From Bacteroidetes bacterium GWF2_41_31 (GTDB taxonomy: Bacteria; Bacteroidota; Bacteroidia; Bacteroidales; F082): 64,000 nucleotides of DNA. The stretch lies in contig MEOL01000052.1 in the NCBI GenBank assembly GCA_001769215.1, positions 124,001 to 188,000 of the forward strand, written 5' to 3'. The translations under genes were made by a program, and so were the position numbers. The notes beneath the pieces were generated by a model. That model saw only the letters and a list, made by a program, of their open reading frames with translations. It searched no databases and had not been told where the DNA came from. This document shows, in pieces, positions 5,088 through 45,266 of the stretch (position 1 is its first letter; each line of letters begins with the position of its first letter).

Positions 5088-5108
5088 TGCCAAATGCTTG
5101 AACTAATG

Positions 5109-5138
5109 AAAAGGCTTCTTTCGGGGAGCCTTTTTTTG
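5109..5138 (+). terminator. Rho-independent terminator after the first Asp-box gene
   Basis: AAAAGGCT at 5109-5116 pairs with AGCCTTTT at 5127-5134 and is followed by a T run. The same stem-loop is repeated almost exactly at 6295-6324. Confidence 0.85.
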
Positions 5139-5172
5139 TTATATAGTTTTTATGAAACATTAGATTTTTTAT

Positions 5173-5202
5173 TTGTTTAAATGAAAGAATCCCCTATCTT
5201 TG
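5173..5202 (+). promoter_or_regulatory. Strong Bacteroidota-type promoter upstream of the six-Cys orphan
   Basis: TTG at 5173-5175 and TATCTTTG at 5195-5202 are separated by 19 bases, an excellent -33/-7 match. The predicted start near 5207 would give the gene at 5423 a leader of about 215 nt. Confidence 0.65.
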
Positions 5203-5306
5203 TAGGTGTAAAACAGCTTTAGTTAATTTTTCTTTTTTACTGTCGTTTTCTACACAAAAAAGTAATATGTTCTATTTAATTGAAACCAAACATGGCTTTA
5301 CCTAAA

Positions 5307-5343
5307 TGTGGCTTCTTTTTTATCGAAATAAAAAGAAGCCACA
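5307..5343 (+). promoter_or_regulatory. Long hairpin in the leader of the six-Cys orphan
   Basis: TGTGGCTTCTTTTTTAT at 5307-5323 pairs with ATAAAAAGAAGCCACA at 5328-5343 around a CGAA loop, leaving one unpaired T. No T run follows, so it is not a standard terminator. It sits about 100 nt into the predicted leader. It may affect RNA stability or translation; the function is unknown. Confidence 0.55.
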
Positions 5344-5422
5344 AGATGAATAAACATATGTAAAGGGTAAATCTATTTCCCTTATGTGGAAATTAAATTA
5401 TTAATTATTAAAACTTATCATT

Positions 5423-5968
5423 ATGTCAAAAAACAATTCCAAATTCTTATCATTGGTACTGCCTATTTTCTTGGTTTCATTCCTATTGATGTCTTTCCTG
5501 CCAATAGAAAGTGGTGAGGAAATAGTAAAAATGAAAACTGTTGAAAAAATATCGGAGCCTATAAATTGTATACCTTACGCTAATTGGGATCCGGTTGAGT
5601 ATGAAGTTGATATGAATTCATCCGGTGTCTATTATGTACCCTACTACGATCTTGTCGGTGTAACCGGGGATCCTCAATGTTATGTGCCGGCTGGTTGTGG
5701 TTATGTGGATATTGATCTATACACAGAAGGGTTTCAATGTGCTAGAAATGGATACGGTTTTACAGCTTATGCGTCAGACCGTTGTACATATATCGCTGTT
5801 CGTTCTACACTTACACCAACTCAAAGTGATCCTGTAACACATACAATAAACTTTAGAGTGATGGATGAAGATGGAAACGTTTCTGGTGAGGGTGGAAGAA
5901 CACTATTGATTAAGTGGCGGCCATTTGTTCCAACTTCTGTCCAAGTATCTCCATGTCCGAGTATGTAG
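5423..5968 (+). CDS. Small exported six-cysteine protein of unknown function
   Basis: I do not recognise a family. The 181-residue product starts with a hydrophobic segment (about 9-27) that could be a signal peptide or membrane anchor. The mature region has exactly six cysteines (49, 86, 92, 106, 121, 178), enough for three disulfides, and is rich in Tyr, Val and Pro, suggesting a small beta-rich extracellular domain. It has no T9SS sorting domain. It sits between two large T9SS paralogs, has its own strong promoter and a structured 215-nt leader, and is followed by a decayed copy of a T9SS sorting domain. Base composition resembles its neighbours. The coding call rests on the length of the open frame, the export signal and the promoter. 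Confidence 0.65.
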   Translation: MSKNNSKFLSLVLPIFLVSFLLMSFLPIESGEEIVKMKTVEKISEPINCIPYANWDPVEYEVDMNSSGVYYVPYYDLVGVTGDPQCYVPAGCGYVDIDLYTEGFQCARNGYGFTAYASDRCTYIAVRSTLTPTQSDPVTHTINFRVMDEDGNVSGEGGRTLLIKWRPFVPTSVQVSPCPSM

Positions 5969-6059
5969 CTGAAAATTCTTTTAATTTAGAATCAGACTGT
6001 TTCAGAATGAAAAGGTTTGTATTTGATATTTGTAGTAGCATTTCCTTTTGATCATTGAG

Positions 6060-6273
6060 AAACCAACTAATAAAGTAATCTAGAATAAGCCTCCAACGTA
6101 AGTCTGGAAGTTTCACCGTAGCCGGACAAAAAGTAGCCATGAGTGATTATGGTTTCAAAACTACAGGTTCGCACAACTTGGCCATTGATGGCAGCCAGTT
6201 AACTACCGGTGTTTATTTTTATACCGTTATAGCTGGCGAAAATAAAGTAACACCTAAAATGATGGTTGATTAG
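6060..6273 (+). pseudogene. Remnant of a third paralog: T9SS sorting-domain 3' end
   Basis: Bases 6124-6326 match 4938-5140 (end of the first Asp-box gene plus its terminator) with roughly 14 differences in 203 bases. The frame GQKVAMSDYGFKTTGSHN continues to a MMVD-TAG end. Upstream, the match to the sorting domain continues to about 6060 but is broken. An A is missing where GAAGTTTAC would be expected, another base is missing in the AATAAGCC stretch, and a TAG replaces a sense codon at 6081. No start codon or body of the gene remains. This is a decayed third copy, not a gene. Confidence 0.85.
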
Positions 6274-6294
6274 TGCCACATGCTTGAACTAATG

Positions 6295-6324
6295 AAAAGG
6301 CTTCTTTCGGGGAGCCTTTTTTTG
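6295..6324 (+). terminator. Duplicated terminator behind the sorting-domain remnant
   Basis: AAAAGGCT at 6295-6302 and AGCCTTTT at 6313-6320 are followed by T residues. It is the same stem-loop as at 5109-5138, copied together with the gene end. It would now stop read-through from the six-Cys orphan. Confidence 0.8.
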
Positions 6325-6603
6325 TTTTTTAAATTTCATCAATTTTGGATAATATAGGTTGGTTAGTGGTTTAGACTAAGGCGTTTTAGGATATTATTTA
6401 TAATTGCTGTATAGAAATATTTGTTTTTTTGCACAATGCAACCATTTTCGATTGGTATGGTCATTTTAATCATGGTTCTTTTAGTAAAAAATCTTGTTTT
6501 AAGTATTGTGATCAACACATATTTTGTTCATATTTGCAAATCAAAAGGAAGAGAAGAATTGTTCTTGTTTTGTTTTATATAATTAATTAATAATAATTTA
6601 ATC

Positions 6604-8508
6604 ATGAAAAAAATTCTACTTATTGTATTTGCGCTTGGTTTTGTAAGCGTTAGTATTGCTCAGGTGGCTCAGATTAAGCCAGAAGCTTGGTACAAAACTG
6701 CTAAAGGGCCTGTTAACAGGCTAAAAATTGCAGAACAGGTACCTACCTATACAGGTGTGGTAAATCCAACAGTTGCCAATAATAGCAGAGCTATGGATCT
6801 TGTTATTGGAGAAACATGGTTCGATTTGGCTTCTAATTCTACCGTTCCAAATAGGATATTCTCTTTTGACGATGGAACGATGGGTGCTGTCTGGACAAGG
6901 GGAATGACAAATCCTTCCACTTACCCTGACCGTGGTACGGGCTATAATTATTATGATGGAACCAGCTGGGGTCCTTATCCTACCGAACGTATTGAAGGTG
7001 TTAGGACTGGTTGGGCAAGCTATGCTCCTTATGGTGCCAATGGAGAAATAGTCTGTACACATACTGGTAACATAAGTACTGGTTTGTTATTTAGCTGGCG
7101 TGAAAACAAAGGTGAAGGTACCTGGAATTATTTTAATTTGACAGGTCCTACCGGGGTTGATATTTTATGGCCAAGGATGGTTACATCTGGTGAAAACCAT
7201 GATATTATTCAAGTAATTGCCGCAACAACCGATGTGTATAATGGTGGTGCAATTTATGAAGGTCTCGATGGTGCTTTGTTGTATTCACGTTCAACAGATG
7301 GAGGTGCTACATGGGATCCACAAAATATGGTACTTGATGGTTTAAGTTCAGATTACACAAATTCATGGTCTGCTGATGACTATGCCTGGGCAGCTCCAGT
7401 TGATAATACCATTGCCTTGTTTGCATTTAGTGGATTTAGAGATGGTGTTGTTATGAAATCAAATGATAATGGTGAAAACTGGGAGCGAATTGTTGTTTAT
7501 GCCAGTTGCCAGCCGTTTTATGAAAACACAACTATTATGCCTGACTTTGGTGGTGGTGATGGTAATAATGCTGTTGCAATTGATGATGAGGGTATTGTTC
7601 ATGTTGCCTTCGGAAGAAAAGTTTTTGTAAATGAGGATGGGGAAGGACTTGCTTCATATTATTATTCCGATGGATTGGTTTATTGGAATGAAACTATGCC
7701 AGCTTTGGATACTGCTATGATGCAGTCATATATTAGACCCGATGACTGGACTGACTGGACTACCACTAATCTGTATCAAAGTGGAAATTTGGCTGGCTGG
7801 GTGCAGCCTAATGGCGAAGATACCATTGTTGGTGTTGTTACCAATTCATATCCTAGCGGACTTTCAAGTATGCCACAATTGGTGGTATTCCGTGATGATT
7901 TAGGAAACAAAATTGTTCAGGTATTCTACTCTTCCATAGCAGTTGGTTACACTAACAATGATTATACAATGAATTACCGCCACATCTGGGGCCGTTTTAC
8001 TGAAGGTGATGGAATTTGGAGTCCATTTACAGATTACACATCTGACATTTTCCATAAATATAGCGAATGTGTATACCCTAGTGTAGCTGCAAAAACAGTA
8101 AATGGTAAATTTCATATGATTTATCAATCAGACGGGGAACCTGGTAGTAGTATGTATCCAACAACTCCAGCGCATACTGCTAATTTGAATACTGTAGTCT
8201 ATTTGGCTGTTACGCCATTGCCTGTAGATGTGGATGAAAACCCTGCCCAGGCACTTGAAATTTCACAAAACTTCCCAAATCCATTCAATGGACAAACTTA
8301 TGTTGAGATGTCATTAAACAGAGCCTCCAACGTAAGTATGGAAGTATATACCATCACCGGACAAAAAGTGGCCATGAGCGATTACGGATATAAAACTACC
8401 GGATTGCATACCATCGCCATTGATGCAAGTCAGCTCAATACCGGTGTTTATTTCTACACCATTACTGCAGGCGAAAGCAAAGTAACCCGTAAAATGATAG
8501 TTGAATAA
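6604..8508 (+). CDS. Secreted Asp-box (BNR-like) protein with T9SS sorting domain, paralog 2
   Basis: The 634-residue protein is homologous throughout to the product of 3222-5087. It has a signal peptide (MKKILLIVFALGFVSVSIA), shared blocks such as SWGPYPTERIEGVRTGW and APYGANGEIVC, Asp-box-like motifs (STDGGATW, SNDNGENW), and a C-terminal type A T9SS domain from about residue 555 (ISQNFPNPFNGQTYVEM to KMIVE). It is probably an exported beta-propeller. The paralogs are clearly diverged in the body but very close in the sorting domain, as expected if that part is under recognition constraint or gene conversion. No substrate can be assigned. A strong terminator follows. Confidence 0.85.
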   Translation: MKKILLIVFALGFVSVSIAQVAQIKPEAWYKTAKGPVNRLKIAEQVPTYTGVVNPTVANNSRAMDLVIGETWFDLASNSTVPNRIFSFDDGTMGAVWTRGMTNPSTYPDRGTGYNYYDGTSWGPYPTERIEGVRTGWASYAPYGANGEIVCTHTGNISTGLLFSWRENKGEGTWNYFNLTGPTGVDILWPRMVTSGENHDIIQVIAATTDVYNGGAIYEGLDGALLYSRSTDGGATWDPQNMVLDGLSSDYTNSWSADDYAWAAPVDNTIALFAFSGFRDGVVMKSNDNGENWERIVVYASCQPFYENTTIMPDFGGGDGNNAVAIDDEGIVHVAFGRKVFVNEDGEGLASYYYSDGLVYWNETMPALDTAMMQSYIRPDDWTDWTTTNLYQSGNLAGWVQPNGEDTIVGVVTNSYPSGLSSMPQLVVFRDDLGNKIVQVFYSSIAVGYTNNDYTMNYRHIWGRFTEGDGIWSPFTDYTSDIFHKYSECVYPSVAAKTVNGKFHMIYQSDGEPGSSMYPTTPAHTANLNTVVYLAVTPLPVDVDENPAQALEISQNFPNPFNGQTYVEMSLNRASNVSMEVYTITGQKVAMSDYGYKTTGLHTIAIDASQLNTGVYFYTITAGESKVTRKMIVE

Positions 8509-8729: not shown

Positions 8730-10034
8730 TTATATCCGCTCTATCAGCGCTCCCAGTTGCTGCAACCGACCTTCAATATTCTGGTATCCCCGGTCGATTT
8801 GTTCAATGTTGTCGATGATGCTGGTGCCTTGGGCCGACAAGGCGGCGATCAGCAAGGCTACCCCTGCCCTGATGTCGGGCGAACTCATTCGGATGCCGCG
8901 TAAAGGGGTGGAATGATTTAAGCCGATTACCGTGGCACGGTGCGGGTCGCAGAGGATAATCCGGGCTCCCATATCGATTAGTTTATCAACAAAAAACAAG
9001 CGGCTTTCAAACATCTTTTGATGAATCAACACGCTGCCTTCTGCCTGGATGGCAATGACCAGTACAATGCTGATTAAATCGGGTGTGAACCCGGGCCAGG
9101 GTGCATCCGCAATATTCATGATCGATCCATCGATAAATGTCTCGATGGCGTAATGTTCGTGTTTGGGCACCAGGATGTCGTTGCCTTTTTGTTCAATGGT
9201 GATGCCCAACCTGCGAAAAGTGGTTGGTATGAGACCCAGGTTCTCAAGTTGTACATTTTTAATGGTGATCTCCGACCTTGTCATGGCGGCCAAGCCAATA
9301 AAACTACCCACCTCAATCATGTCGGCAAGCATGGTGTGATTGGTGCCATGAAGCCTGTTTACACCATGGATGGTAAGTAAATTGCTGCCTATTCCTGCGA
9401 TGTCTGCCCCCATGTTGTTCAGCATCTTGCACAACTGAACCAGATAGGGTTCGCATGCCGCGTTAAAAATGGTGGTTGTCCCTTGAGCCCTCACGGCTGC
9501 CATCAGGATATTGGCTGTTCCGGTAACAGAGGCTTCCTCGAGTAACATATAATCCCCCACAAGTTGTTTGGCTGTTACCTCATAGCTTTTTTTGTCAGGA
9601 TGGTATAAAAAGGTTGTTCCCAATTTTTGCAGGCCAACAAAATGGGTGTCAAGCCGCCTTCTGCCGATTTTATCGCCGCCAGGTTGAGGCAAGGTTCCTT
9701 TTCCGAACCGGGCAAGCAAGGGTCCCAGAAGCATCACGCTTCCACGGATTGAGGTGGCTTTTTTATAAAAGTCTTCCGTTTCGAGGTAATCCATGTTAAC
9801 ACGGGCCGCCTTAAACAACCAAGAGGAACCATCGGTTTTTGTTACATCCACTCCAAGTCCGGCGAGCAATTCTATCAGTCTGTTCACATCACTGATATCG
9901 GGCACGTTATGCAGATGGACTTCCTCATCGGTAAGTAAAACAGCACAAAGGATCTGTAAAGCCTCGTTTTTCGCTCCCTGGGGAATGATTTCTCCGGAAA
10001 GTCTTTTTCCGCCAGTTATTTTAAATGATGTCAT
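8730..10034 (-). CDS. murA: UDP-N-acetylglucosamine 1-carboxyvinyltransferase (MurA), Asp-type active site
   Basis: MurA transfers enolpyruvate from PEP to UDP-GlcNAc, the first committed step of peptidoglycan synthesis in the cytoplasm. The 434-residue protein has the usual length, with the family's GAKNEAL block near the N-terminus and GPLLARFGKGTLPQPGG before the active-site loop. The position of E. coli Cys115 is Asp here (D121, codon 9672-9674, in PGGDKIGRR). Fosfomycin alkylates the Cys, and Asp-type MurAs (Mycobacterium, Chlamydia, Borrelia) are known to be resistant. I chose the ATG at 10034; an upstream in-frame TTG (10043) is not needed. The DUF4290 gene lies upstream on the same strand, but a terminator separates them. 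Confidence 0.95.
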   Translation of the reverse strand: MTSFKITGGKRLSGEIIPQGAKNEALQILCAVLLTDEEVHLHNVPDISDVNRLIELLAGLGVDVTKTDGSSWLFKAARVNMDYLETEDFYKKATSIRGSVMLLGPLLARFGKGTLPQPGGDKIGRRRLDTHFVGLQKLGTTFLYHPDKKSYEVTAKQLVGDYMLLEEASVTGTANILMAAVRAQGTTTIFNAACEPYLVQLCKMLNNMGADIAGIGSNLLTIHGVNRLHGTNHTMLADMIEVGSFIGLAAMTRSEITIKNVQLENLGLIPTTFRRLGITIEQKGNDILVPKHEHYAIETFIDGSIMNIADAPWPGFTPDLISIVLVIAIQAEGSVLIHQKMFESRLFFVDKLIDMGARIILCDPHRATVIGLNHSTPLRGIRMSSPDIRAGVALLIAALSAQGTSIIDNIEQIDRGYQNIEGRLQQLGALIERI

Positions 10035-10054
10035 AGTACACAAATCTTAAACGA

Positions 10055-10084
10055 CCAAAGTAAAGACGTCAACTCAAGCTGCAA
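10055..10084 (-). promoter_or_regulatory. Possible murA promoter
   Basis: On the minus strand TTG (10084-10082) is followed after about 20 bases by TACTTTG (10061-10055), one base short of the TAnnTTTG consensus. It would serve murA downstream of the terminator at 10141-10176. Confidence 0.35.
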
Positions 10085-10140
10085 ACAGGTTTTTGGATGA
10101 CAAGAAAGCTGTGCCGGCTTAATCGACAGGTTGTAAAATA

Positions 10141-10176
10141 ACAAAAAAACAGCCACATAGGGACTGTTTTTTTTCA
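10141..10176. terminator. Bidirectional-looking terminator between the DUF4290 gene and murA
   Basis: AAACAGCC (10147-10154) pairs with GGACTGTTT (10161-10169) with one bulged A. It is flanked by an A run on one side and a T run on the other, so it can stop transcription leaving the DUF4290 gene on the minus strand. Confidence 0.8.
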
Positions 10177-10226
10177 ATTATTTATTTATTCAGGCAAATG
10201 CCGGAACGATTGGTTCGAAGGGGTAC

Positions 10227-10859
10227 CTATTTGGTGTATTTTTTTTTGGTGTTGCTTCCAAAACCTTTTTGTGGTTTCTTCTTCATTTTATTGACAGGTT
10301 TGTTTTTTACAACCACTTCGCTCACACTAATCAATGGGGTCAGTTGATTAAAAATCAGTTTGCCGTCTGACATTTCTTCCAGGTGTTTTGCAATGGTGGC
10401 ATCGCTTACCGATTCTCTGTTCCAGGTAAGGTACGAACGTTTTAAGTAATTGGCGATTGATAATATCAACGCGTCTTTTTCTTCGCCATCTTCAAATTCG
10501 TTGCTTTTGGCAATAATATTTTCGATGGTTTTTCCATAGTGCCTCAGGCTTATTTTTTTGTCGCTGTATTCAATCCTGTCCGGTTTACGCATCAGGTTTT
10601 CTTTCACAGGCTTTGGATAAGGGCTGTCGACATCAAGTTTGAAATCGGCAATCATGTGCATGTGATCCCACAGGGTTTGAATATAATCACTCGATTCTTT
10701 GATGTCAGGATTCATCTGACCCATAACACGCACTACAAATTGAGCCGACTTATTGCGTTTTTCACGATCTTCAATGCCAACGGTGTATTCAATCATTTTT
10801 TGGATATTCCGGCCGTATTCGGGGATTATCATGTGTTCGCGGGTTGTGTTATAATCCAT
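10227..10859 (-). CDS. DUF4290 domain protein
   Basis: The 210-residue protein is soluble and highly charged, with no signal peptide. It begins MDYNTTREHMIIPEYGRNIQ and matches the Bacteroidota-specific DUF4290 family as I remember it, including the REKRNKSAQFVVRVMGQMNP block and the LWDHMHMIADF motif. Its residence next to murA is common in the phylum, which suggests but does not prove a link to wall synthesis. The C-terminus is Lys-rich (PQKGFGSNTKKKYTK), often a sign of nucleic-acid or ribosome contact. Function is unknown. A TAATTTTG box lies upstream and a terminator downstream, so it is probably monocistronic. Confidence 0.85.
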   Translation of the reverse strand: MDYNTTREHMIIPEYGRNIQKMIEYTVGIEDREKRNKSAQFVVRVMGQMNPDIKESSDYIQTLWDHMHMIADFKLDVDSPYPKPVKENLMRKPDRIEYSDKKISLRHYGKTIENIIAKSNEFEDGEEKDALILSIANYLKRSYLTWNRESVSDATIAKHLEEMSDGKLIFNQLTPLISVSEVVVKNKPVNKMKKKPQKGFGSNTKKKYTK

Positions 10860-37464: not shown

Positions 37465-37530
37465 GCTGGGTATTTTTGCTTTAGCATTTTTTTACCGTGG
37501 TTGCAATCAATCAAATCTTTCCACAAGCGT
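37465..37530 (-). ncRNA. SAM-II (SAM-alpha) type riboswitch upstream of metK
   Basis: Read on the minus strand, the segment has the ordered conserved parts of the SAM-II aptamer. P1 5' strand UUGUGG (37526-37521) is followed by GAUUUGA (37517-37511), UUGCAA just before the P1 3' strand CCACGG, then UAAA and finally GCUAAAG (37485-37479). P1 pairs UUGUGG with CCACGG, including two wobbles. The aptamer lies right after the predicted transcription start and about 50 nt before the metK ATG. SAM-II controls methionine/SAM genes in Alphaproteobacteria and some Bacteroidota. Recognition is by consensus from memory, without a covariance model. Confidence 0.75.
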
Positions 37531-37836: not shown

Positions 37837-38751
37837 CTAATCCTGCGTCAGCCGGTGGAAAACATCTTCCATCTTGCTCGAATCCTGGGCCAATGCCAGC
37901 ACATTGTATCCGTTTTTTACTGCGAATTTGAAAATATTTTCACGTATATCTTTGCCTTGTTCACCCGTGATGAGCCAGGTATTGCCTTTCAGTTTTTCAA
38001 TTTTTTTTGCTCCGGCGATGTCTTTAATATCAATACTTGCAAGTGTTTCCTTTAGCTCAAGCCGGTATACGAACGATTGTGTGGCATTTTTTGAAAGATT
38101 CGAAGGGGTGTCGTCGGCCACTATTTTCCCGTGATCGATAATAATGACCCGGTTACACAAGGCCTCCACTTCCTGCATGATGTGTGTACTCAGGATAATG
38201 GTTTTTATTTTTCCCAAATCGGCAATAATGTGCCTGATTTCCACCAGCTGATTGGGATCAAGTCCGGAGGTGGGCTCATCCAGTATTAAAATTTCTGGAT
38301 CGTGGATAAGTGCCTGTGCCAGTCCAACGCGTTGGCGGTAGCCTTTCGAGAGCTCGCCTATTTTCTTGCGGCTTTCCTGTCCCAGTCCGGTCAGGCTGAT
38401 TACATCGTCCACAGCCTTTTTAACATTGCCTTTCACAGGATAGCTGTTAAACACAAATGTCAGGTATTCGCGCACATACATGTCAGTATACAGGGGATTT
38501 GTTTCGGGGAGGTAGCCAATGTGTTTCCTGATTTCGAGCGACTGCTCCTGCACATCGAGTCCGTTCACCCGGGCAGTACCCGAACTTGGCGGGATCACGG
38601 TGGTGAGGATTTTCATCAGGGTGGATTTGCCGGCACCATTGGGCCCCAGCAATCCAACTACTTCTCCTTTGTTAATGGATAGACTAATGTTGTCGAGTGC
38701 TTTTTGCTGACCGTAATATTTGGTGATTCCTTCTATTTTTACCGTTGACAT
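37837..38751 (-). CDS. gldA: ABC transporter ATPase, gliding-motility type (GldA)
   Basis: The 304-residue ATPase has Walker A LLGPNGAGKSTL, signature LSKGYRQRVGLAQAL, Walker B ILILDEPTSGLDP and the H-loop STHIMQEVEALC. Its length and C-terminal extension agree with the GldA/CcmA-like ATPases of Bacteroidota, where GldA works with the permeases GldF and GldG. Neither partner is adjacent here, so the transporter's substrate and any link to gliding are inferences. I start at the ATG at 38751; an upstream in-frame TTG lies essentially inside the promoter. A simpler alternative is an ABC-2 exporter ATPase of unknown cargo. Confidence 0.8.
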   Translation of the reverse strand: MSTVKIEGITKYYGQQKALDNISLSINKGEVVGLLGPNGAGKSTLMKILTTVIPPSSGTARVNGLDVQEQSLEIRKHIGYLPETNPLYTDMYVREYLTFVFNSYPVKGNVKKAVDDVISLTGLGQESRKKIGELSKGYRQRVGLAQALIHDPEILILDEPTSGLDPNQLVEIRHIIADLGKIKTIILSTHIMQEVEALCNRVIIIDHGKIVADDTPSNLSKNATQSFVYRLELKETLASIDIKDIAGAKKIEKLKGNTWLITGEQGKDIRENIFKFAVKNGYNVLALAQDSSKMEDVFHRLTQD

Positions 38752-38775
38752 GGGTGCGATTTGATTAAGTTTTTG

Positions 38776-38783
38776 CAAAAGTA
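38776..38783 (-). promoter_or_regulatory. -7 box of gldA
   Basis: On the minus strand TACTTTTG followed by C matches the consensus, about 25 bases before the gldA ATG. It overlaps the in-frame TTG start alternative, which argues for the shorter protein. Confidence 0.55.
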
Positions 38784-38837: not shown

Positions 38838-40169
38838 ATGAAATCAAAACTACTTATTCTTCAGCTTCTTATTTTGCCCTTGCTTTCATTTTCACAAAGC
38901 TATTATGAAAAAACAATTGATTTTGGGCAATTCGATCACCCAACCGCAGTGGTAACCGATGATGCAGGCAATGTATTTGTCTGTGGCTGGTTTGAGGATG
39001 AAAACCTCGAAAATCAACATGCTTTTGCATTTAAAGTGGATGCAAACGGACAGGAAGTCTGGCGAAATGTTATAAATGATTCTTCCAAATTTTACAACCT
39101 GTGTATCATGGCCAGTGGTGAAATTGCGCTGGCAGGAGCGATGGCACAGCATTGTTTTCTTCAGGTAGTAGATGCAGAAACAGGGACGGAGACCTGGTCC
39201 TATGAAGAGGATGCAACGGACGGGTTTTGGTTTGGAACTGTAAACGAAATGCCAGCAGGTGCTTTGAGCGAATTGGTTGCTGCAAAAACAAAGGACGCAA
39301 CGCATATCCCTGTTATATATAATATATCCAGCAGATTCGGAACGGTAAAGGAGATAACTTCATGGAAATATGAATTGGTTGACGCGATCGGACAATCGTT
39401 TATGCAGTCGTATAATTATATGTGGTTTGGAGTGAATGATGTAGCATTTGCTTATGATAATTATAATAATTTCAGAATGGTCTGGTCGTTTGGTGCCAGC
39501 TATAATGCGGGAATGGATCGATATACGCCTGATGCATGGTTTCTCACAAGAACCTTTGTTGGTGATTCTGGCGTAAGTTCCATTGGTCTGTTGTCGACAG
39601 ACTTTATAAATGGTGGAATTGTCGGCAATATGTTTGAATTAGATTATCCCGGTACCATGGTTTTGGGTTCCGGAAGTCTTGGTTTTGAGAAAATTATGAT
39701 AACGGGTTCTATTAACGGAGATTTGGCCCTCTGGTTGGTAGGTACCGACCTCAATTTGCAAAATGAAATCACCTATCCCAATGAAAATGAACGGACCGGA
39801 GTTGATGTGGTAGGGCTTGTTTCAAACGACCTCTTAATGATGGGTTATGAGAACAGTCTTGATGGCAGTTTCTCCGATGTGTTTTTGATGAAACGCGATG
39901 CCAATGGAGGCGTGGTTTCTACCAATGAAATCATTGCCGATGAAAGTGTGCAGATTTATCCAAACCCGGCTACTGACAGGGTCTTTATAAGAAATGACTA
40001 TAACCTGAAAGTAGAAGTAGATATTATTAACAGTGTAGGTCAATTAGTCAAGAAGATTACTATTTCCAATCAATATGTTTCTGTGGAAGACTTACCAACA
40101 GGGTATTACTTAGCTGTTATAAAAATTGATGGAGTAAAAGTTGAACAGGAAAAGCTGATCGTACAATAA
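38838..40169 (+). CDS. Secreted propeller-like protein with T9SS sorting domain
   Basis: The 443-residue protein has a signal peptide (about 1-19, ending LSFSQ). Its body has repeats resembling bacterial beta-propeller units, e.g. TDDAGNVFVCGWF followed by FKVDANGQEVW, and VVDAETGTETW. The C-terminus is a type A T9SS domain: IYPNPATDRVFIRNDYN to GYYLAVIKIDGVKVEQEKLI. Function is unknown; such proteins often act as surface binding or structural proteins. A GC-rich hairpin (40208-40230) lies 38 bases after the stop. Confidence 0.78.
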   Translation: MKSKLLILQLLILPLLSFSQSYYEKTIDFGQFDHPTAVVTDDAGNVFVCGWFEDENLENQHAFAFKVDANGQEVWRNVINDSSKFYNLCIMASGEIALAGAMAQHCFLQVVDAETGTETWSYEEDATDGFWFGTVNEMPAGALSELVAAKTKDATHIPVIYNISSRFGTVKEITSWKYELVDAIGQSFMQSYNYMWFGVNDVAFAYDNYNNFRMVWSFGASYNAGMDRYTPDAWFLTRTFVGDSGVSSIGLLSTDFINGGIVGNMFELDYPGTMVLGSGSLGFEKIMITGSINGDLALWLVGTDLNLQNEITYPNENERTGVDVVGLVSNDLLMMGYENSLDGSFSDVFLMKRDANGGVVSTNEIIADESVQIYPNPATDRVFIRNDYNLKVEVDIINSVGQLVKKITISNQYVSVEDLPTGYYLAVIKIDGVKVEQEKLIVQ

Positions 40170-40232
40170 GTATTTTTAAATATTTGTAAATCATTCATCA
40201 TTATCTGGCGCGCGTTTTGTCAACGCGTGCTC

Positions 40233-40473
40233 TTGCCAATGTCCCCACTCATTGTGATAGCTTCAAAGAGAAGGTAAAGTGATAGCAATACCAACCCTTT
40301 CCCAACTATCAACAGCCTGGCAAATCTCAACAGCAGGTTTTTTGTCCGATGGCATGAAAAAATACGGTGGCTTTCTTGTTGGGTCCTTCAACTTTACCTT
40401 GAATCAGAAGTGTTTTCGTGTTTATGGAAAATGGATTATGAAATAATTGCATTAGTTTTGTTACTCAGGTTTA
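40233..40473 (-). pseudogene. Copy A of the pcrA 3' end (frameshifted)
   Basis: On the minus strand this stretch repeats the helicase gene end at 42903-43000 and its 3' flank. It can be read from an ATG through MQLFHNPFSI and then EGPNKKATVFFHA, but one T is missing from the T run at about 40339-40344 (six instead of seven), shifting the frame before the LLLRFA tail. The 40390-40473 part is shared with copy B but not with the intact gene. It is a decayed duplicate. Confidence 0.85.
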
Positions 40474-40501
40474 GAATTTTCAACTTTTTTTTACAGTATC
40501 A

Positions 40502-40531
40502 TTGTTATTATTTTTCTCTTTGATACCTTTG
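40502..40531 (+). promoter_or_regulatory. Promoter of lemA-htpX
   Basis: TTG at 40502-40504 and TACCTTTG at 40524-40531 are 19 bases apart. The predicted start near 40536 lies 49 bases before the lemA ATG. Confidence 0.65.
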
Positions 40532-40584
40532 GAGAAATCTTTATGTTTACACCCACATTTATAAGTAATTTAAAATAAGACACC

Positions 40585-41148
40585 ATGGGACCTTTCCTTG
40601 TTATTATCGCCATCGTTATCGTTTTCATTCTCTTTTTCATCGCAATTTATAACCGTCTTGTTCGGTTGCGAAACAACCGTGAACAGGCCTTTGCCGATAT
40701 TGATGTACAACTTAAACAACGTCATGATCTTATCCCGCAATTGGTCAATTCGGTAAAGGGATATATGCAGCATGAAAAAAGTGTGTTGACAGAGATTACT
40801 GATGCACGATCTCATGCCATGAAAGCATCTTCCATTGATGAGAAGATCGCTGCAGAAAACCGCCTGACCACTGCTTTGCAAGGGTTTAACATTGCTGTGG
40901 AGGCCTACCCTGATCTGAAAGCTAACCAAAACTTTTTGAACCTTCAGGAGGAGATCTCGGATATTGAAAACAAACTCGCTGCTTCACGACGTTTCTTTAA
41001 CTCCGCTACCAAGGAGCTGAACAATGCCGTGGAAGTATTTCCAGCCAACCTGGTTGCCGGAATGTTCGGATTCAAACGTGAAACGATGTTCGACCTGGGA
41101 AGTCAACAACGTGTGAATCTTAGCGAGGCACCGGAGATTAATTTTTAG
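40585..41148 (+). CDS. lemA: LemA family membrane protein
   Basis: The 187-residue protein has one N-terminal transmembrane helix (about 4-24, with the N-terminus outside in the family) followed by a long helical domain. The LemA core is plain: YNRLVRLRNNREQAFADIDVQLKQRHDLIPQLVNSVKGYM and later LQEEISDIENKLAASRRFFN, then ATKELNNAVEVFP. The biochemical role of LemA is not established; it is often encoded with M48 proteases or TPM proteins. It is 30 bases upstream of the HtpX-like gene on the same strand and shares its promoter. The pair is bracketed by two copies of the pcrA tail. Confidence 0.94.
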   Translation: MGPFLVIIAIVIVFILFFIAIYNRLVRLRNNREQAFADIDVQLKQRHDLIPQLVNSVKGYMQHEKSVLTEITDARSHAMKASSIDEKIAAENRLTTALQGFNIAVEAYPDLKANQNFLNLQEEISDIENKLAASRRFFNSATKELNNAVEVFPANLVAGMFGFKRETMFDLGSQQRVNLSEAPEINF

Positions 41149-41178
41149 TTTGAAAATACACCAAAATTTCTGCCCAAG

Positions 41179-42099
41179 ATGAAATATGTCGGTTTGCAAT
41201 CGCAGATATGGAGCAATAATATCAAGTCTGCTCTACTGATGATTTTATTTCCTTTAGTCTTTTTTATACTGGCATGGATCTTTTTCTACATGACCTCTGA
41301 CGCTGAAAACAGAACTGTTACCAATACCTTTTCTCAATTTCTGGTTGCCTTACCCTGGATTACCCTGGTTGTCACTCTTTGGTTTATCATTGCCTATTTC
41401 TCACATTCGTCGATGATCAACCAGGCGACAGGTTCAAAGCCCCTGGAGAGAAAAGAAAACAAAAGAGTATATAATATCGTCGAGAACCTTTGTATTGTTG
41501 CAGGGATGACCATGCCACAAGTCAATGTGATTGAGGACGATTCGCTTAATGCTTTCGCCAGTGGGATTAACGAAAAAAACTTTTCAGTGTCTTTATCGCG
41601 TGGGATCATCGACAAACTAAATGACGAGGAACTTGAAGCTGTGGTTGCTCATGAATTAACGCACATTCGAAACAGAGATGTACGGTTACTCATCATTTCC
41701 ATCGTTTTTGTAGGTATTTTTTCTTTTATCACTGAAACCATGATGCGTTCCTTAAGGTTCGGACGTGGCAGCGGTGGCAAGAAAAGCGGTCAGGCACAAA
41801 TCCTGATCATGGTGTTGGCATTAATTGGTTTGCTACTGGCTTCCGTGTTTCGGTTTGCCTTATCCCGCAAACGGGAATACCTTGCCGATGCAGGTTCCTC
41901 GGAACTAACCAAAAACCCCCTTGCACTGGCTTCGGCACTTGAAAAAGTTTCACAGGACGCCACCATTGAAGCGGTTAAAAGAAAGGATGTAGCACAGATG
42001 TTCATTGAAAACCCTCAATTCGAAAAAAATAGCTCATTTTCTCTTTTTGCCACTCATCCACCTATTGAGAAAAGAATTCAGCTATTGCGACAGTTCTGA
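41179..42099 (+). CDS. htpX: M48 family zinc metalloprotease (HtpX-like)
   Basis: The 306-residue integral membrane protein has two N-terminal helices (about 18-37 and 55-74), the zinc-binding HELTH at 158-162, two more helices, and a downstream REYLAD that supplies the third zinc ligand (Glu). HtpX-type proteases degrade misfolded inner-membrane proteins. The sequence CIVAGMTMPQVNVIEDDSLNAFASG is typical. It forms a two-gene unit with lemA, a known pairing, so a role in envelope quality control is likely. Calling it htpX is by family; the physiological substrate is unknown. Confidence 0.9.
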   Translation: MKYVGLQSQIWSNNIKSALLMILFPLVFFILAWIFFYMTSDAENRTVTNTFSQFLVALPWITLVVTLWFIIAYFSHSSMINQATGSKPLERKENKRVYNIVENLCIVAGMTMPQVNVIEDDSLNAFASGINEKNFSVSLSRGIIDKLNDEELEAVVAHELTHIRNRDVRLLIISIVFVGIFSFITETMMRSLRFGRGSGGKKSGQAQILIMVLALIGLLLASVFRFALSRKREYLADAGSSELTKNPLALASALEKVSQDATIEAVKRKDVAQMFIENPQFEKNSSFSLFATHPPIEKRIQLLRQF

Positions 42100-42154
42100 G
42101 TTTGTACCATGAATTCATGTTGCTTTAGCATTCCCAAAATAGGTTAGTTGCGAT

Positions 42155-42377
42155 TGATCCCCTCAGCAAAGAGAAGCTATTGTTATAGCAAACCCTACCC
42201 ATTCCCAACTACCACCAGTTTGGCAAATCTCAACAACAGGTTTTTTTGTCCGACGGCATGAAAAAATACGGTGGCTTTCTTGTTGGGTCCTTCACCTGTA
42301 CCTTGCACAGGAAGTATTTTTATGCTTATAGAAAATGGATTATGAAATAATTGTATTAGTTTTGTTACTCAGGTTTA
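42155..42377 (-). pseudogene. Copy B of the pcrA 3' end (open, one substitution in the last 31 codons)
   Basis: On the minus strand the last 31 codons of the helicase (from GPNKK to the VVGNG end and its TAG at 42195-42197) are reproduced with a single Met-to-Val change. The frame stays open upstream through a segment reading QLFHNPFSISIKILPVQG, which is shared with copy A but absent from the intact gene, giving an open stretch of about 57 codons without an ATG. It may be a relic of a different pcrA 3' end. Confidence 0.85.
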
Positions 42378-42388
42378 AAAACCACTCA

Positions 42389-42396
42389 TATTTTTG
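42389..42396 (+). promoter_or_regulatory. Putative -7 box at the hicB start
   Basis: TATTTTTG fits the consensus, but it ends only four bases before the hicB ATG (42400). A TTG lies 24 bases upstream. If used, the hicBA mRNA is leaderless or nearly so. Confidence 0.4.
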
Positions 42397-42399
42397 GAG

Positions 42400-42591
42400 A
42401 TGAAAAAAGAAAAATATATATTCTGGCAGGATGAGGACATGTTTATTGGTTATTTGGAAGAATTTCCTGACTATTGGACTCAAGGCATAACCATCGATGA
42501 ACTGAAAGTTAATCTGAGAGCTTTATATATTGATTTAACCAGCGGCCATATCCCCCAAGTGCGTAAAGTGGATGAATTGGAGATTGCATGA
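42400..42591 (+). CDS. hicB: HicB-family antitoxin
   Basis: The 63-residue protein has the HicB-like fold sequence: FIGYLEEFPDYWTQGITIDELKVNLRALYIDL. This is the short, partial RNase H-like antitoxin domain that covers the toxin's active site. It lacks a C-terminal DNA-binding domain, so autoregulation, if any, must differ from the long HicB forms. I start at ATG 42400 rather than the upstream TTG. The stop overlaps the toxin start by ATGA (42588-42591). The order is antitoxin first, the reverse of E. coli hicAB. Confidence 0.88.
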   Translation: MKKEKYIFWQDEDMFIGYLEEFPDYWTQGITIDELKVNLRALYIDLTSGHIPQVRKVDELEIA

Positions 42592-42761
42592 AACGAAGGA
42601 TTTTGATAAAAAAGATTGAAAATGCCGGAGGTGTTTTAATCCGGCATGGGGGAAATCATGATTGGTATCAAAACCCAAAAACGAAAATGTCACAGCCTGT
42701 TCCCAGACATAAAGAAATAAATGAATTCCTTGCAGCTCATATTTTAAAAATGCTGGAATAA
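42588..42761 (+). CDS. hicA: HicA-family mRNA interferase toxin
   Basis: The 57-residue product starts MKRRILIKKIENAGG and matches the dsRBD-like HicA family: an N-terminal helix, GGVLIRHGGNHDWYQNP with the expected catalytic His at 24, then VPRHKEINEFLAAHILKML. HicA toxins cleave mRNAs and tmRNA until bound by HicB. The gene overlaps hicB by four bases. Its length is at the lower end for the family but no key part is missing. Together with hicB it is a type II toxin-antitoxin pair in a region marked by duplications, in keeping with an acquired module. Confidence 0.87.
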   Translation: MKRRILIKKIENAGGVLIRHGGNHDWYQNPKTKMSQPVPRHKEINEFLAAHILKMLE

Positions 42762-42902
42762 TATTCATATGGAAAATGTGCCACCTGATGATTGTGGTAT
42801 AGAAACAGACATAGAAAGACAAAATTATATTAGTTGCTATGCTTACCAATGTTCCCACTCATTGTTTATAGCTACAAAATGAAGGTAATGCTTTAGCAAA
42901 CC

Positions 42903-45188
42903 CTACCCATTCCCAACCACCATCAGCTTGGCAAATCTCAACAACAGGTTTTTTTGTCCTACGGCATGAAAAAATACGGTGGCTTTCTTATTGGGCCCTT
43001 CACCTTCAATGGAAATCACCTTGCCCAGTCCAAAACTCACATGTTCCACTTCCATACCTACCTGGATATTGCCATCCGTTGGCTGGCTGGCCGATGGGGC
43101 AGAAGGTGTGTTTTCTGCCCTGTGCATGGGCTTTAAAGGACGTTTTGTAAAACTGGTATTAAACGAATCCGAAAAATTTCTTTTCACCGCCTGTTTATTT
43201 AAACCCGATTCTTTGGGTTTGTTATAAAGTTCGGCATTAATTTCCTCTAAAAAGCGACTGGGTTCGGTAAATGTAAAATTCCCCCAGCGGTAACGACTTT
43301 CGGCATGGCTAAGCGTTAAATGACTCATGGCCCTGGTGATGGCCACATAAAATAAACGCCGTTCTTCTTCAAGTTCCGAACGCGTACTGATGGACTGGAT
43401 GGATGGAAACAGGTTTTCTTCAAGCCCCACCACGATCACATGCGGGAATTCCAGTCCTTTTGAAGCATGAATGGTCATCAAAGTGACTTTGTCTTTGTCT
43501 TCATCCGAATCGGTGTCAGCATCGGTGAGCAACGCCACATCCTGCATAAATTCGCCCAGCGATTTTTTAATGGACAGGTCTCCTTCATTGGTCTCCACTG
43601 CTTTCTCGGTAAACTCCTTAATTCCGTTGAGCAATTCCTCAATATTTTCAACCCGGCTGATTCCTTCAGGGGTTTCTTCGTCCTTGTGCATCTTCACCAG
43701 GCCCGAAGTTGTTGCAATGTAACTGGCTATCTCATAAGCATCTTTAGACTTGTTCAGGGCCATGAAACTCTTGATCATGGTGATAAAATCGCTAATCTTC
43801 CGGGCAGTTCCGCTATTGAGTGCCAGCCCAAATGAATTTGGGTCCTCTGCCACCTGCCAGAGGCTGAGTCCATTCTCATCACCGGCCACCATCATTTTTT
43901 CGAGGGTTGTTTTACCGATTCCCCGTGCCGGAACGTTAATAATCCGATGAAAAGCTTCATCATCGTTGTTGTTGATTACCAATCGAAAATACGACAACAG
44001 GTCCTTTATTTCTTGTCGGTTGTAAAACGACAGGCCCCCATAGATTCGATAAGGGATGTTTTTCTTCCGCAAGCCTTCCTCTATGGATCTCGACTGGGCA
44101 TTGGTTCGGTATAAAATGGCAAACGCGTTGTTTGGCAGCTGATTGTTCATTTTCTGATCAAAAATAGCTGCAGCCACCAGGTTGCCTTCTTCGTTGTCAC
44201 TGGAAGCTTTGATTAAATCGATGCGGGTTCCGGCTCCTTTATCGGTCCAGACAGTTTTTTTTATCTGTTCCTTATTAAATGTAATCACCTGATTGGCTGC
44301 CTGTACGATGGTGTTTGTCGACCGATAGTTTTGTTCCAGTTTAAAGAGTTTGATATCGGGATAATCCTTTTTCAGGTTCAACATGTTGCTGATATTGGCT
44401 CCACGAAAGGCATAAATGCTTTGAGCATCATCGCCTACCACACAGATGTTCTCGGTGTTGGCAGCCAATCGCTTGATGATCAGATATTGTGCGTAGTTGG
44501 TGTCCTGGTACTCATCTACCATGATGTACTGGAATTTTTGCTGGTATTTGTAAAGTATTTCCGGGAAACCGGCAAACAGCAGGTAGGTGTTAAACAGCAA
44601 ATCGTCAAAATCCATGGCATCGGCTTTTTTCAGTCTGGCCTGGTATGCACGATAAATATCTTTAATCATGGGTTTCCCGGAAGCCTCGTCAACAGTTTGA
44701 ACATCGGGATTGTTGGTGTATTGGTCGGCATTCATCAGCGACGATTTTGCCATGGAGATTCTGCCGGCCACAAAGGATTGGGCATACACCTTGCTGTCGA
44801 GTTGCATATCGCTGACAATCTGTCGGATAAGTCGTTTACTGTCGGTGCTGTCGTAAATGGAATAATTGGATGGATAGCCCAGTAAATGACCATCAATGCG
44901 CAATATCTTCGAAAAAATGGAGTGAAAGGTTCCCATCCACACATTTCTGCCTTCGCCATCACCCACGAGTTTAAGCACTCTTTCCTTCATTTCGCGGGCG
45001 GCCTTGTTGGTAAAGGTCAGTGCCAGAATATTAAAGGCATCCACCCCTTTGGAGAGCAAATAGGCTATTCGGTAAGTAAGTACACGTGTTTTTCCCGATC
45101 CTGCGCCGGCGATGACCATCACTGGGCCCTCGGCCTGCACTACAGCGTCATATTGTTCTTTATTGAGTTGATCTAAAAAGTTGCTCAC
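42903..45188 (-). CDS. pcrA: UvrD/PcrA-type superfamily 1 DNA helicase
   Basis: This 3'-5' helicase acts in repair and clearing of DNA-bound proteins. The 761 residues include the Q-like motif LDQLNKEQYDAV, Walker A VIAGAGSGKTRVLTYR, motif Ia LTFTNKAAREMKER, motif II DEYQDTNYAQY, motif III VVGDDAQSIYAFRGA and motif VI YVAITRAMSHLTLSHA. The C-terminal Tudor-like domain runs GMEVEHVSFGLGKVISIEG to the end. I start at GTG 45188 (VSNFLDQLNKEQ), because a longer ATG version (45224) would place its first codons on top of the promoter box at 45214-45207. Two decayed copies of the 3' end lie downstream. Confidence 0.94.
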   Translation of the reverse strand: MSNFLDQLNKEQYDAVVQAEGPVMVIAGAGSGKTRVLTYRIAYLLSKGVDAFNILALTFTNKAAREMKERVLKLVGDGEGRNVWMGTFHSIFSKILRIDGHLLGYPSNYSIYDSTDSKRLIRQIVSDMQLDSKVYAQSFVAGRISMAKSSLMNADQYTNNPDVQTVDEASGKPMIKDIYRAYQARLKKADAMDFDDLLFNTYLLFAGFPEILYKYQQKFQYIMVDEYQDTNYAQYLIIKRLAANTENICVVGDDAQSIYAFRGANISNMLNLKKDYPDIKLFKLEQNYRSTNTIVQAANQVITFNKEQIKKTVWTDKGAGTRIDLIKASSDNEEGNLVAAAIFDQKMNNQLPNNAFAILYRTNAQSRSIEEGLRKKNIPYRIYGGLSFYNRQEIKDLLSYFRLVINNNDDEAFHRIINVPARGIGKTTLEKMMVAGDENGLSLWQVAEDPNSFGLALNSGTARKISDFITMIKSFMALNKSKDAYEIASYIATTSGLVKMHKDEETPEGISRVENIEELLNGIKEFTEKAVETNEGDLSIKKSLGEFMQDVALLTDADTDSDEDKDKVTLMTIHASKGLEFPHVIVVGLEENLFPSIQSISTRSELEEERRLFYVAITRAMSHLTLSHAESRYRWGNFTFTEPSRFLEEINAELYNKPKESGLNKQAVKRNFSDSFNTSFTKRPLKPMHRAENTPSAPSASQPTDGNIQVGMEVEHVSFGLGKVISIEGEGPNKKATVFFHAVGQKNLLLRFAKLMVVGNG

Positions 45189-45206
45189 AGTTTTTTCTTT
45201 TCGATG

Positions 45207-45214
45207 CAAAAGTA
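45207..45214 (-). promoter_or_regulatory. -7 box of pcrA
   Basis: On the minus strand TACTTTTG followed by C is an exact match. It lies within the longer in-frame reading of pcrA, so transcription would start after that ATG and the GTG at 45188 is the likely start. Confidence 0.6.
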
Positions 45215-45266
45215 CATGTTTCATATGAGGGATTGGCGAGGATAACTAACTCAGGTTAAAATTCGC

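Follow-up and report, generated by a model that had tools for sequence, protein, structure and literature searches.

Copies of gene 3' ends beside accessory genes at pcrA and other loci of a Bacteroidales genome: probable scars of gene gain by recombination

The pcrA Locus

The pcrA/uvrD helicase gene of Bacteroidetes bacterium GWF2_41_31 is followed by two further copies of its own 3' end, and accessory genes lie between these copies. The locus belongs to a stretch of 64,000 nucleotides (contig MEOL01000052.1, positions 124,001 to 188,000 of the forward strand; assembly GCA_001769215.1) that is called the window here and whose numbering is used below. The window is part of an assembly, designated G000, whose 52 contigs total 4.52 Mb. 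Genomes G001, G002, G003, and G004 are of the same genus.

The pcrA gene (42903-45224, minus strand) encodes a protein of 773 amino acids (aa) with a PcrA_UvrD_tudor domain at residues 722-765 (Pfam; cut-offs were applied to domain calls). The duplicated part consists of the last ~33 codons, which belong to the C-terminal Tudor region, and the 3' flank. The intact gene end with its flank, which is the functional copy of the repeat, occupies 42842-43006. Copy B lies at 42167-42298 and copy A, with 3' flank, at 40232-40394; both are on the minus strand and all three share one orientation. On their cargo sides A and B continue into an 82-bp stretch, not assigned to a strand, that is common to the two and has no match at the intact gene. 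It forms the junction side of the unit that lies beyond each copy, at 40395-40476 for A and 42299-42380 for B, so that the copies with this stretch span 40232-40476 and 42167-42380. Between A and B are lemA (40585-41148, plus strand; PF04011) and a gene for an HtpX-like M48 peptidase (41179-42099, plus strand; PF01435), both above the Pfam cut-off. Between B and pcrA are a hicB-like antitoxin open reading frame (ORF; 42400-42591, plus strand), which has a weak resemblance to UPF0150 (18.6 bits against a cut-off of 27.3), and the hicA toxin gene (42588-42761, plus strand; HicA_toxin PF07927, above the cut-off). Beyond copy A, an accessory gene for a 443-aa protein (38838-40169, plus strand) with the sorting domain of the type IX secretion system (T9SS), Por_Secre_tail, separates A from an ABC ATPase gene (37837-38778).

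Copy B is identical to the gene at 119 of 131 nt (91%; 42167-42297 against 42875-43005). It is open through the last 33 codons with a single change, the gene ending in ...KLMVVGNG and B in ...KLVVVGNG. Copy A matches the gene at 139 of 165 positions (84%, two gap positions; 40232-40394 against 42842-43006) and its frame is broken by one base missing from a T run. A and B are 90% identical over 139 nt, of which 82 nt are on the cargo side, and they meet the 82-bp stretch at the identical point. When 10-kb stretches were block-shuffled 300 times, the gene end scored at most 31 bits against them, as compared with 159 for B and 127 for A. The anatomy is therefore established, and it is the one described in a first-pass annotation made from the sequence alone: its positions were right within a few bases, it had recognized the amino-acid change in B and the lost base in A, and the ~80 bp that it found absent from the intact gene measure 82 bp. 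That annotation had also named a common dispersed repeat as what would overturn its reading. A dispersed repeat is ruled out, as B with its flanks matched these three places only in the whole assembly (E<=1e-3), and the 82 bp found no further match in this genome at the same threshold. Among RNA targets no tRNA was found; the single SAM-II riboswitch lies away from the end copies, upstream of metK (37471-37530, minus strand; 70.1 bits).

Relatives and the Order of Gains

The interval from pcrA to the ABC gene ranges from 0.1 to ~15 kb and differs in gene content among four genomes of the genus, G000 included, which supports the earlier proposal that the site receives accessory genes. The ABC-transporter ATPase gene follows pcrA directly in G004 and in three genomes of the family (G010, G024, and G036). 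In G002 ~15 kb separate the two genes and hold those for a 713-aa protein and an 870-aa T9SS protein together with a type I restriction system. G003 shares the gene for the 713-aa protein and also has a hydrolase gene, the gene for the 443-aa T9SS protein, copy A, and lemA-htpX; in G000 the gene for the 443-aa protein, A, and lemA-htpX are accompanied by B and hicBA. G001 gave no match to the pcrA tail.

Because G003 carries A and lemA-htpX and lacks B and hicBA, the latter pair is the later gain, and the successive gains proposed in the annotation are established in this order. The only other pcrA end in G003 is that of the gene itself. The htpX and pcrA stops are 129 bp apart in G003 and 803 bp apart in G000, so that the two genomes differ here by a net 674 bp. 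G003 thus provides the empty allele for B and hicBA; none was identified for copy A. The outer flank of B matches the flank of the G003 pcrA end as far as htpX, and the V at the changed residue of B also occurs in the pcrA genes of G003 and G002, the G000 gene having M. Both observations fit a B that was formerly the end of the pcrA gene; neither is strong alone. Since A and B join the 82 bp at an identical point, this junction was made once and then copied. A site-by-site test of B for a clean mosaic, A-like on the cargo side and gene-like on the other, found none; gene-like sites in B may simply be ancestral.

The corA Locus

The fullest comparison of donor and recipient comes from corA. In G003 corA is followed directly by a sigma-factor gene, which constitutes an empty site. 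G002 has a lipase-like cargo gene (Pfam Lipase_3) between the two and no end copy. In G000 the order is corA, this cargo, a 45-bp copy of the corA end, a gene for a 415-aa protein that is in neither relative's corA locus, and the sigma-factor gene. Over 1324 bp the cargo has 93.4% identity to G002. For the corA stretch the figures are 83% with G002 and 97% with G003. The cargo is therefore G002-like in origin, on a G003-like background, and the evidence for a G002-like source is strong. Copy and intact end disagree at two positions in 45 bp, and at both the copy agrees with G003. By eye, the 3' flank of the intact end is G002-like and that of the copy G003-like, and the distal join lies at GGAG, which occurs alike in the G002 cargo end and in G003 corA. 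Sequence comparison thus establishes three things at corA: the cargo is donor-like, G003 has the site without cargo, and the old end groups with G003, the recipient-like relative. The simplest account would be that a donor gave corA a new end and that the old end stayed downstream.

End Copies at Other Genes

To scan for the mark elsewhere, the last 150 nt of each ORF were sought up to 10 kb downstream and the first 150 nt up to 10 kb upstream on the same strand. In G000 the scan covered 1.235 Mb and 845 ORFs (minimum 150 aa); for 808 of these the downstream sequence extended to 3 kb or more. End-only copies downstream, with cargo between, were found for six of the 845: pcrA, a gene for a 621-aa protein, corA, hsdS, a gene for a 184-aa protein, and a NUDIX gene (76% identity). 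These six come from ten tail matches, from which two full paralogues, one 219-aa partial paralogue, and C50:262566-264446 (47 nt, 79%) were excluded. All nine start matches upstream spanned much of the protein, which leaves start-only copies at 0/845, and the difference from 6/845 is modest (Fisher p = 0.03). In G006 (740 kb, 501 ORFs) there were three short tail matches of 22, 29, and 54 nt; these, two paralogue matches, and one repeat-family match (G006_213163) were not counted as long end-only copies. The scan of 80 named loci took in 846 ORFs, of which 655 had 3 kb or more of downstream sequence, and its one end-only copy was that of pcrA in G003. An absolute 3' bias is ruled out by start copies in G006 and in L110 (34 nt). 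Long end copies are thus plentiful in G000, with the 3' bias no more than a tendency. A separate scan of 1013 ORFs of at least 200 aa used the window and 137 loci, some picked because they hold copies, and no rates were taken from it; besides pcrA, its tail-only matches were the 621-aa gene, a 487-aa gene of G041, and a 29-nt match in L098. Recurrence at other genes is thus established, and the focus of the annotation on pcrA as a special site was too narrow.

The 621-aa gene (3222-5087, plus strand) is the second example in the window. Its 3' end (4885-5156) is copied at 6073-6342 on the same strand, with 86% identity over 272 nt and 91% over 219 nt (6124-6342). A 181-aa ORF (5423-5968) lies between gene and copy, and a diverged full paralogue (6604-8508) lies beyond the copy. 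When positions 4600-6700 were sought in G001-G004, several related gene ends were found in three and none in G002, which settled nothing. The end copies of hsdS (C45:41122-41227) and of the 184-aa gene (C45:39434-39510) are interleaved in a defence-type island of G000 (L251, C45:38500-47000), where they surround genes for a KAP-NTPase, a SIR2-like protein (a PADLOC Aga_SIR2 match), and an HTH protein. The cargo at the NUDIX end copy is an AAA_14/DUF4143 ATPase (L252:1499-2761; PADLOC candidate PDC-S01), and an ATPase of this type also lies beside pcrA in G041 (L055:9596-10831).

pcrA Ends Across the Order

A profile of 37 pcrA ends was used to search 393 genomes of the order, 367 of which gave a match. 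More than one match was found in G000, G041, G345, G387, G416, and G206; in the last both matches are at contig starts and were not counted, which leaves five of the 367, G000 included. The copies in G041, G345, G387, and G416 represent four other families, so that recurrence across families is established as well. In a sample of the family itself (161 of 173 with a match) extra copies were found in G000, G003, and G142, the last of which belongs to this sample only; G035, with two matches at contig edges, was not counted. In G041, G345, G387, G416, and G142 the copy is downstream on the same strand, 0.8-5.1 kb from start to start. The copies take in ~16 codons of the gene in G142, 30 in G041, 54 in G416, and 60 in G345. 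The value for G387, at least 99, is a lower bound, as the match there reaches the limit of the tested stretch. In G041 both pcrA and the 487-aa T9SS gene convergent with it have repeated ends, the outcome expected if a circle containing the region between them had integrated by a single crossover. The two G416 ends show ~90 bp of complete identity and are diverged to either side of it, which is likewise what a central crossover would leave. No decisive assignment of donor and recipient came from a comparison of the tail copies and flanks of G041, G387, and G416 with genus mates.

For comparison, murA ends (profile of 29) gave a second match in one of 370 genomes (G555), the location of which was not found, i.e., at most 1/370. 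The ends of metK (8 rows, a weaker profile than that of pcrA or murA) gave extra matches in 10 of 358 genomes. Seven of these are second frames of more than 400 aa, and in two genomes (G235 and G237) the match is on a different contig, in a frame that is short or broken. The tenth, in G467, is a tail copy downstream of metK (L299:395-554; 86.5% over 163 nt) with ORFs of 192 and 180 aa between. The excess at pcrA is weak: 5/367 against 2/728 for metK and murA together, the unlocated murA match included (p = 0.046), and p = 0.22 against metK alone. pcrA is at most a mild hot spot.

T9SS sorting-domain proteins above the Pfam cut-off lie beside pcrA in G000, G002, G041, G416, G387, and G345 (L055, L053, L092, L093, L104, and window 38838-40169); a T9SS-type protein beside pcrA in G142 is below the cut-off. 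Ends of murA (63 distinct peptides) are found inside the pcrA neighbourhoods of relatives, and in G000 murA and a DUF4290 gene (8730-10859) are ~32 kb from pcrA.

A Recombination Model and Its Alternatives

The copies are probably scars left when recombination at the 3' ends of genes brought in new DNA, a process that would require no integrase, and we place the probability of this reading at a little over 60%. DNA arriving from a relative would bear cargo joined to a 3' end that matches a resident gene. Recombination within the shared end would give the gene the donor's end, place the cargo next to it, and leave the resident's old end beyond the cargo, where it would begin at an illegitimate (end-joined) junction. 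A trimmed and recircularised fragment that enters by a single crossover would give the observed anatomy; alternatively, a linear fragment might be joined at microhomology. The junction of the pcrA end with the 82 bp would have formed once, with or before the arrival of lemA-htpX. The hicBA unit would have re-used it when an A-type copy recombined unequally with the intact pcrA end, with either a relative's incoming DNA or the sister chromosome as pairing partner. End copies may then serve as ready homology for more gain or loss. We infer the route by which DNA entered, the intermediates of recombination, and a course at pcrA that follows the one at corA. A ComEC-family domain is encoded in G000, but because it is also present in 10 of 14 control genomes, including E. 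coli, the match points to no particular entry route.

Several observations weigh against this reading. The annotation expected the cargo of relatives to be bounded by tail copies. Cargo does differ between relatives and G003 has copy A, but G002 carries no pcrA tail copy despite its large cargo and neither does G004, which has no gene between pcrA and the ABC gene. The substitutions that separate A, B, and the gene are mixed, and they do not show a donor origin of the present pcrA end. The course proposed in the annotation, in which each event supplied a new end and left the old one downstream, is supported by another gene, corA, with its G002-like cargo and G003-like old end, and not in this respect by pcrA itself. 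No donor locus was found for hicBA, which no collection-wide scan sought. In the 3' flank of B (42133-42166) ~40 bp have been replaced and resemble the flank of neither the gene nor A, which is unexplained. At the two corA sites where copy and intact end differ, the intact end agrees with G002 at one and with neither relative at the other, and at two further sites the copy agrees with the intact end and not with G003. Two sites in 45 bp and a short flank make the corA end evidence thin, and it agrees with the cargo. Copies of gene starts also exist: a 546-aa ORF of G006 has a start-only copy upstream (88% over 117 nt), and a 34-nt start match was found in contig L110 of G003 in the scan of the 80 loci. 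Finally, G002, G003, and G004 were judged to be metagenome-assembled genomes.

The alternative that survives best, though we regard it as unlikely, is plain tandem duplication within the genome followed by decay and replacement of the contents of the second copy, in which case the copies would need no incoming DNA. As direct repeats, A and pcrA are able to pair unequally, B looks like a hybrid of a gene-type outer side (the htpX flank) and an A-type inner side, and the repeats in G041 and in the hsdS island are interleaved. The cargo between the repeats is unlike, however, which would require foreign replacement DNA anyway, and the corA cargo is nearer to G002 than corA itself is.

Gene 3' ends are classic integration targets, and site-specific integration would place an attachment site in the 3' end of pcrA, on which an integrase supplied in trans would act while each cassette brought a replacement end. 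One source names islands at dusA and trmE (PMC8409611). The start of the copy in G041, which is of another family, lies within ~2 codons of that in G000, and the 82 bp common to A and B resemble an "element end." Against this, the 82 bp have no other genome match at E<=1e-3, and no recombinase domain was detected at E<=1e-3 in the scanned cargo proteins, some small ORFs being outside the scan. Because copy lengths differ between lineages, from ~16 to at least 99 codons, a fixed attachment site is argued against, and the varying repeat starts rule out a fixed attachment core. A like anatomy also occurs at the unrelated genes corA, hsdS, metK, the NUDIX gene, and the 621-aa gene. Integration of this kind is quite improbable. 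The interpretation offered in the annotation is largely right in its recombination form and finds no support in its integration form.

An artefact of assembly or a mixture of strains might be suspected in draft metagenome assemblies with many contigs, some of them short, and with the two G345 ends nearly identical (191/198 nt), but it is very improbable, as copy A is common to the assemblies of two species and the G000 copies differ from the gene at 9-16% of sites.

Implications for Gene Gain

No mobile element is visible near many of the accessory genes that lie between core genes, among them toxin-antitoxin pairs, restriction systems, and genes for secreted proteins. A retained copy of a neighbour's 3' end is a readable scar that gives the direction and order of gains and can be scanned for in any genome by a simple end-copy test. 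It makes testable whether plain recombination stacks cassettes at core genes, and corA offers one fairly well-resolved case. As the mark occurs at other genes, it may reflect a general route of gene gain without a mobile-element enzyme. A bolder extension, which we regard as rather doubtful, is that the ends of housekeeping genes are portable homology arms. A first illegitimate event would make a unit of cargo plus spare gene end, which might then spread from strain to strain and stack by homologous recombination, and this would amount to an integrase-free cassette array at core-gene 3' ends across the order with pcrA as preferred address.

Comparison With Known Systems

The minimal mobile elements of Neisseria are alternative gene cassettes between conserved genes that are moved by homologous recombination; tail copies are not known to be part of their definition. 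A search of titles and listings returned no paper that names the pcrA 3' end as an insertion site and none on this pattern in Bacteroidetes. In Vibrio cholerae, repeated insertions at Type 6 Secretion System effector loci push older pieces, in one case an effector 3' end, downstream, and a similar mechanism is suggested by the authors for stepwise insertion of effector modules (PMC5361080). There the incoming module replaces the effector, whereas in the present case it is one housekeeping end that is rebuilt each time. In pneumococcus, transformation is documented to yield tandem duplications when repeats pair alternatively (PMC3784515). Just downstream of MaOC1 in Microcystis, two direct repeats of 152 bp enclose a toxin-antitoxin pair, but those repeats start 14 bp past the stop codon, contain an inverted repeat, and hold no gene end (PMC7935541). 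Direct repeats flank 10-18% of the small variable segments of three species; 66-94% of those repeats are shorter than 30 bp, unlike the present copies (PMC2884548). Integrase-borne islands differ in that no recombinase domain was found in the cargo scanned here (E<=1e-3) and the repeat starts, which vary between lineages, fit no fixed core attachment site.

Experiments in Escherichia coli come nearer to the proposed mechanism. When linear DNA with one homologous gene end was introduced, 56 of 60 clones of the screened class gave a PCR product for a partial duplication, the duplications measured 109-950 bp in 14 sequenced clones, and the authors infer a single crossover of a trimmed, recircularised molecule (PMC3240628). 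As here, the partial duplication of a gene end flanks the inserted DNA; the insert there was a laboratory plasmid that entered by conjugation, whereas the cargo here is natural. Homology-facilitated illegitimate recombination has one homologous and one illegitimate end, usually with microhomology of 3-10 bp (PMC3240628); a candidate for such microhomology is the GGAG at the distal corA join, seen by eye and shared with G002 and G003. That process generally deletes resident DNA of about the size of the insert (PMC3240628), whereas the old gene end is retained at both corA and pcrA.

The closest likeness is to "insertion with long target duplication," described from the comparison of two Helicobacter pylori genomes and often associated with restriction-modification genes (Nobusato et al., 2000, via PMC1643837 and PMC3031569). 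Both involve inserted genes and a long, variable duplication of the target, recognized by comparing two related genomes, and here too the insert lies between long direct repeats of the target. As to restriction-modification, the cargo at pcrA is lemA-htpX and hicBA; type I restriction-modification genes occur in the G002 interval and hsdS at the C45 locus. The present case differs in its target, which is repeatedly a gene 3' end, in the variety of its cargo, and in a junction common to two insertions. It stays close to insertion with long target duplication, and we infer for it a mechanism of recombination at gene 3' ends.

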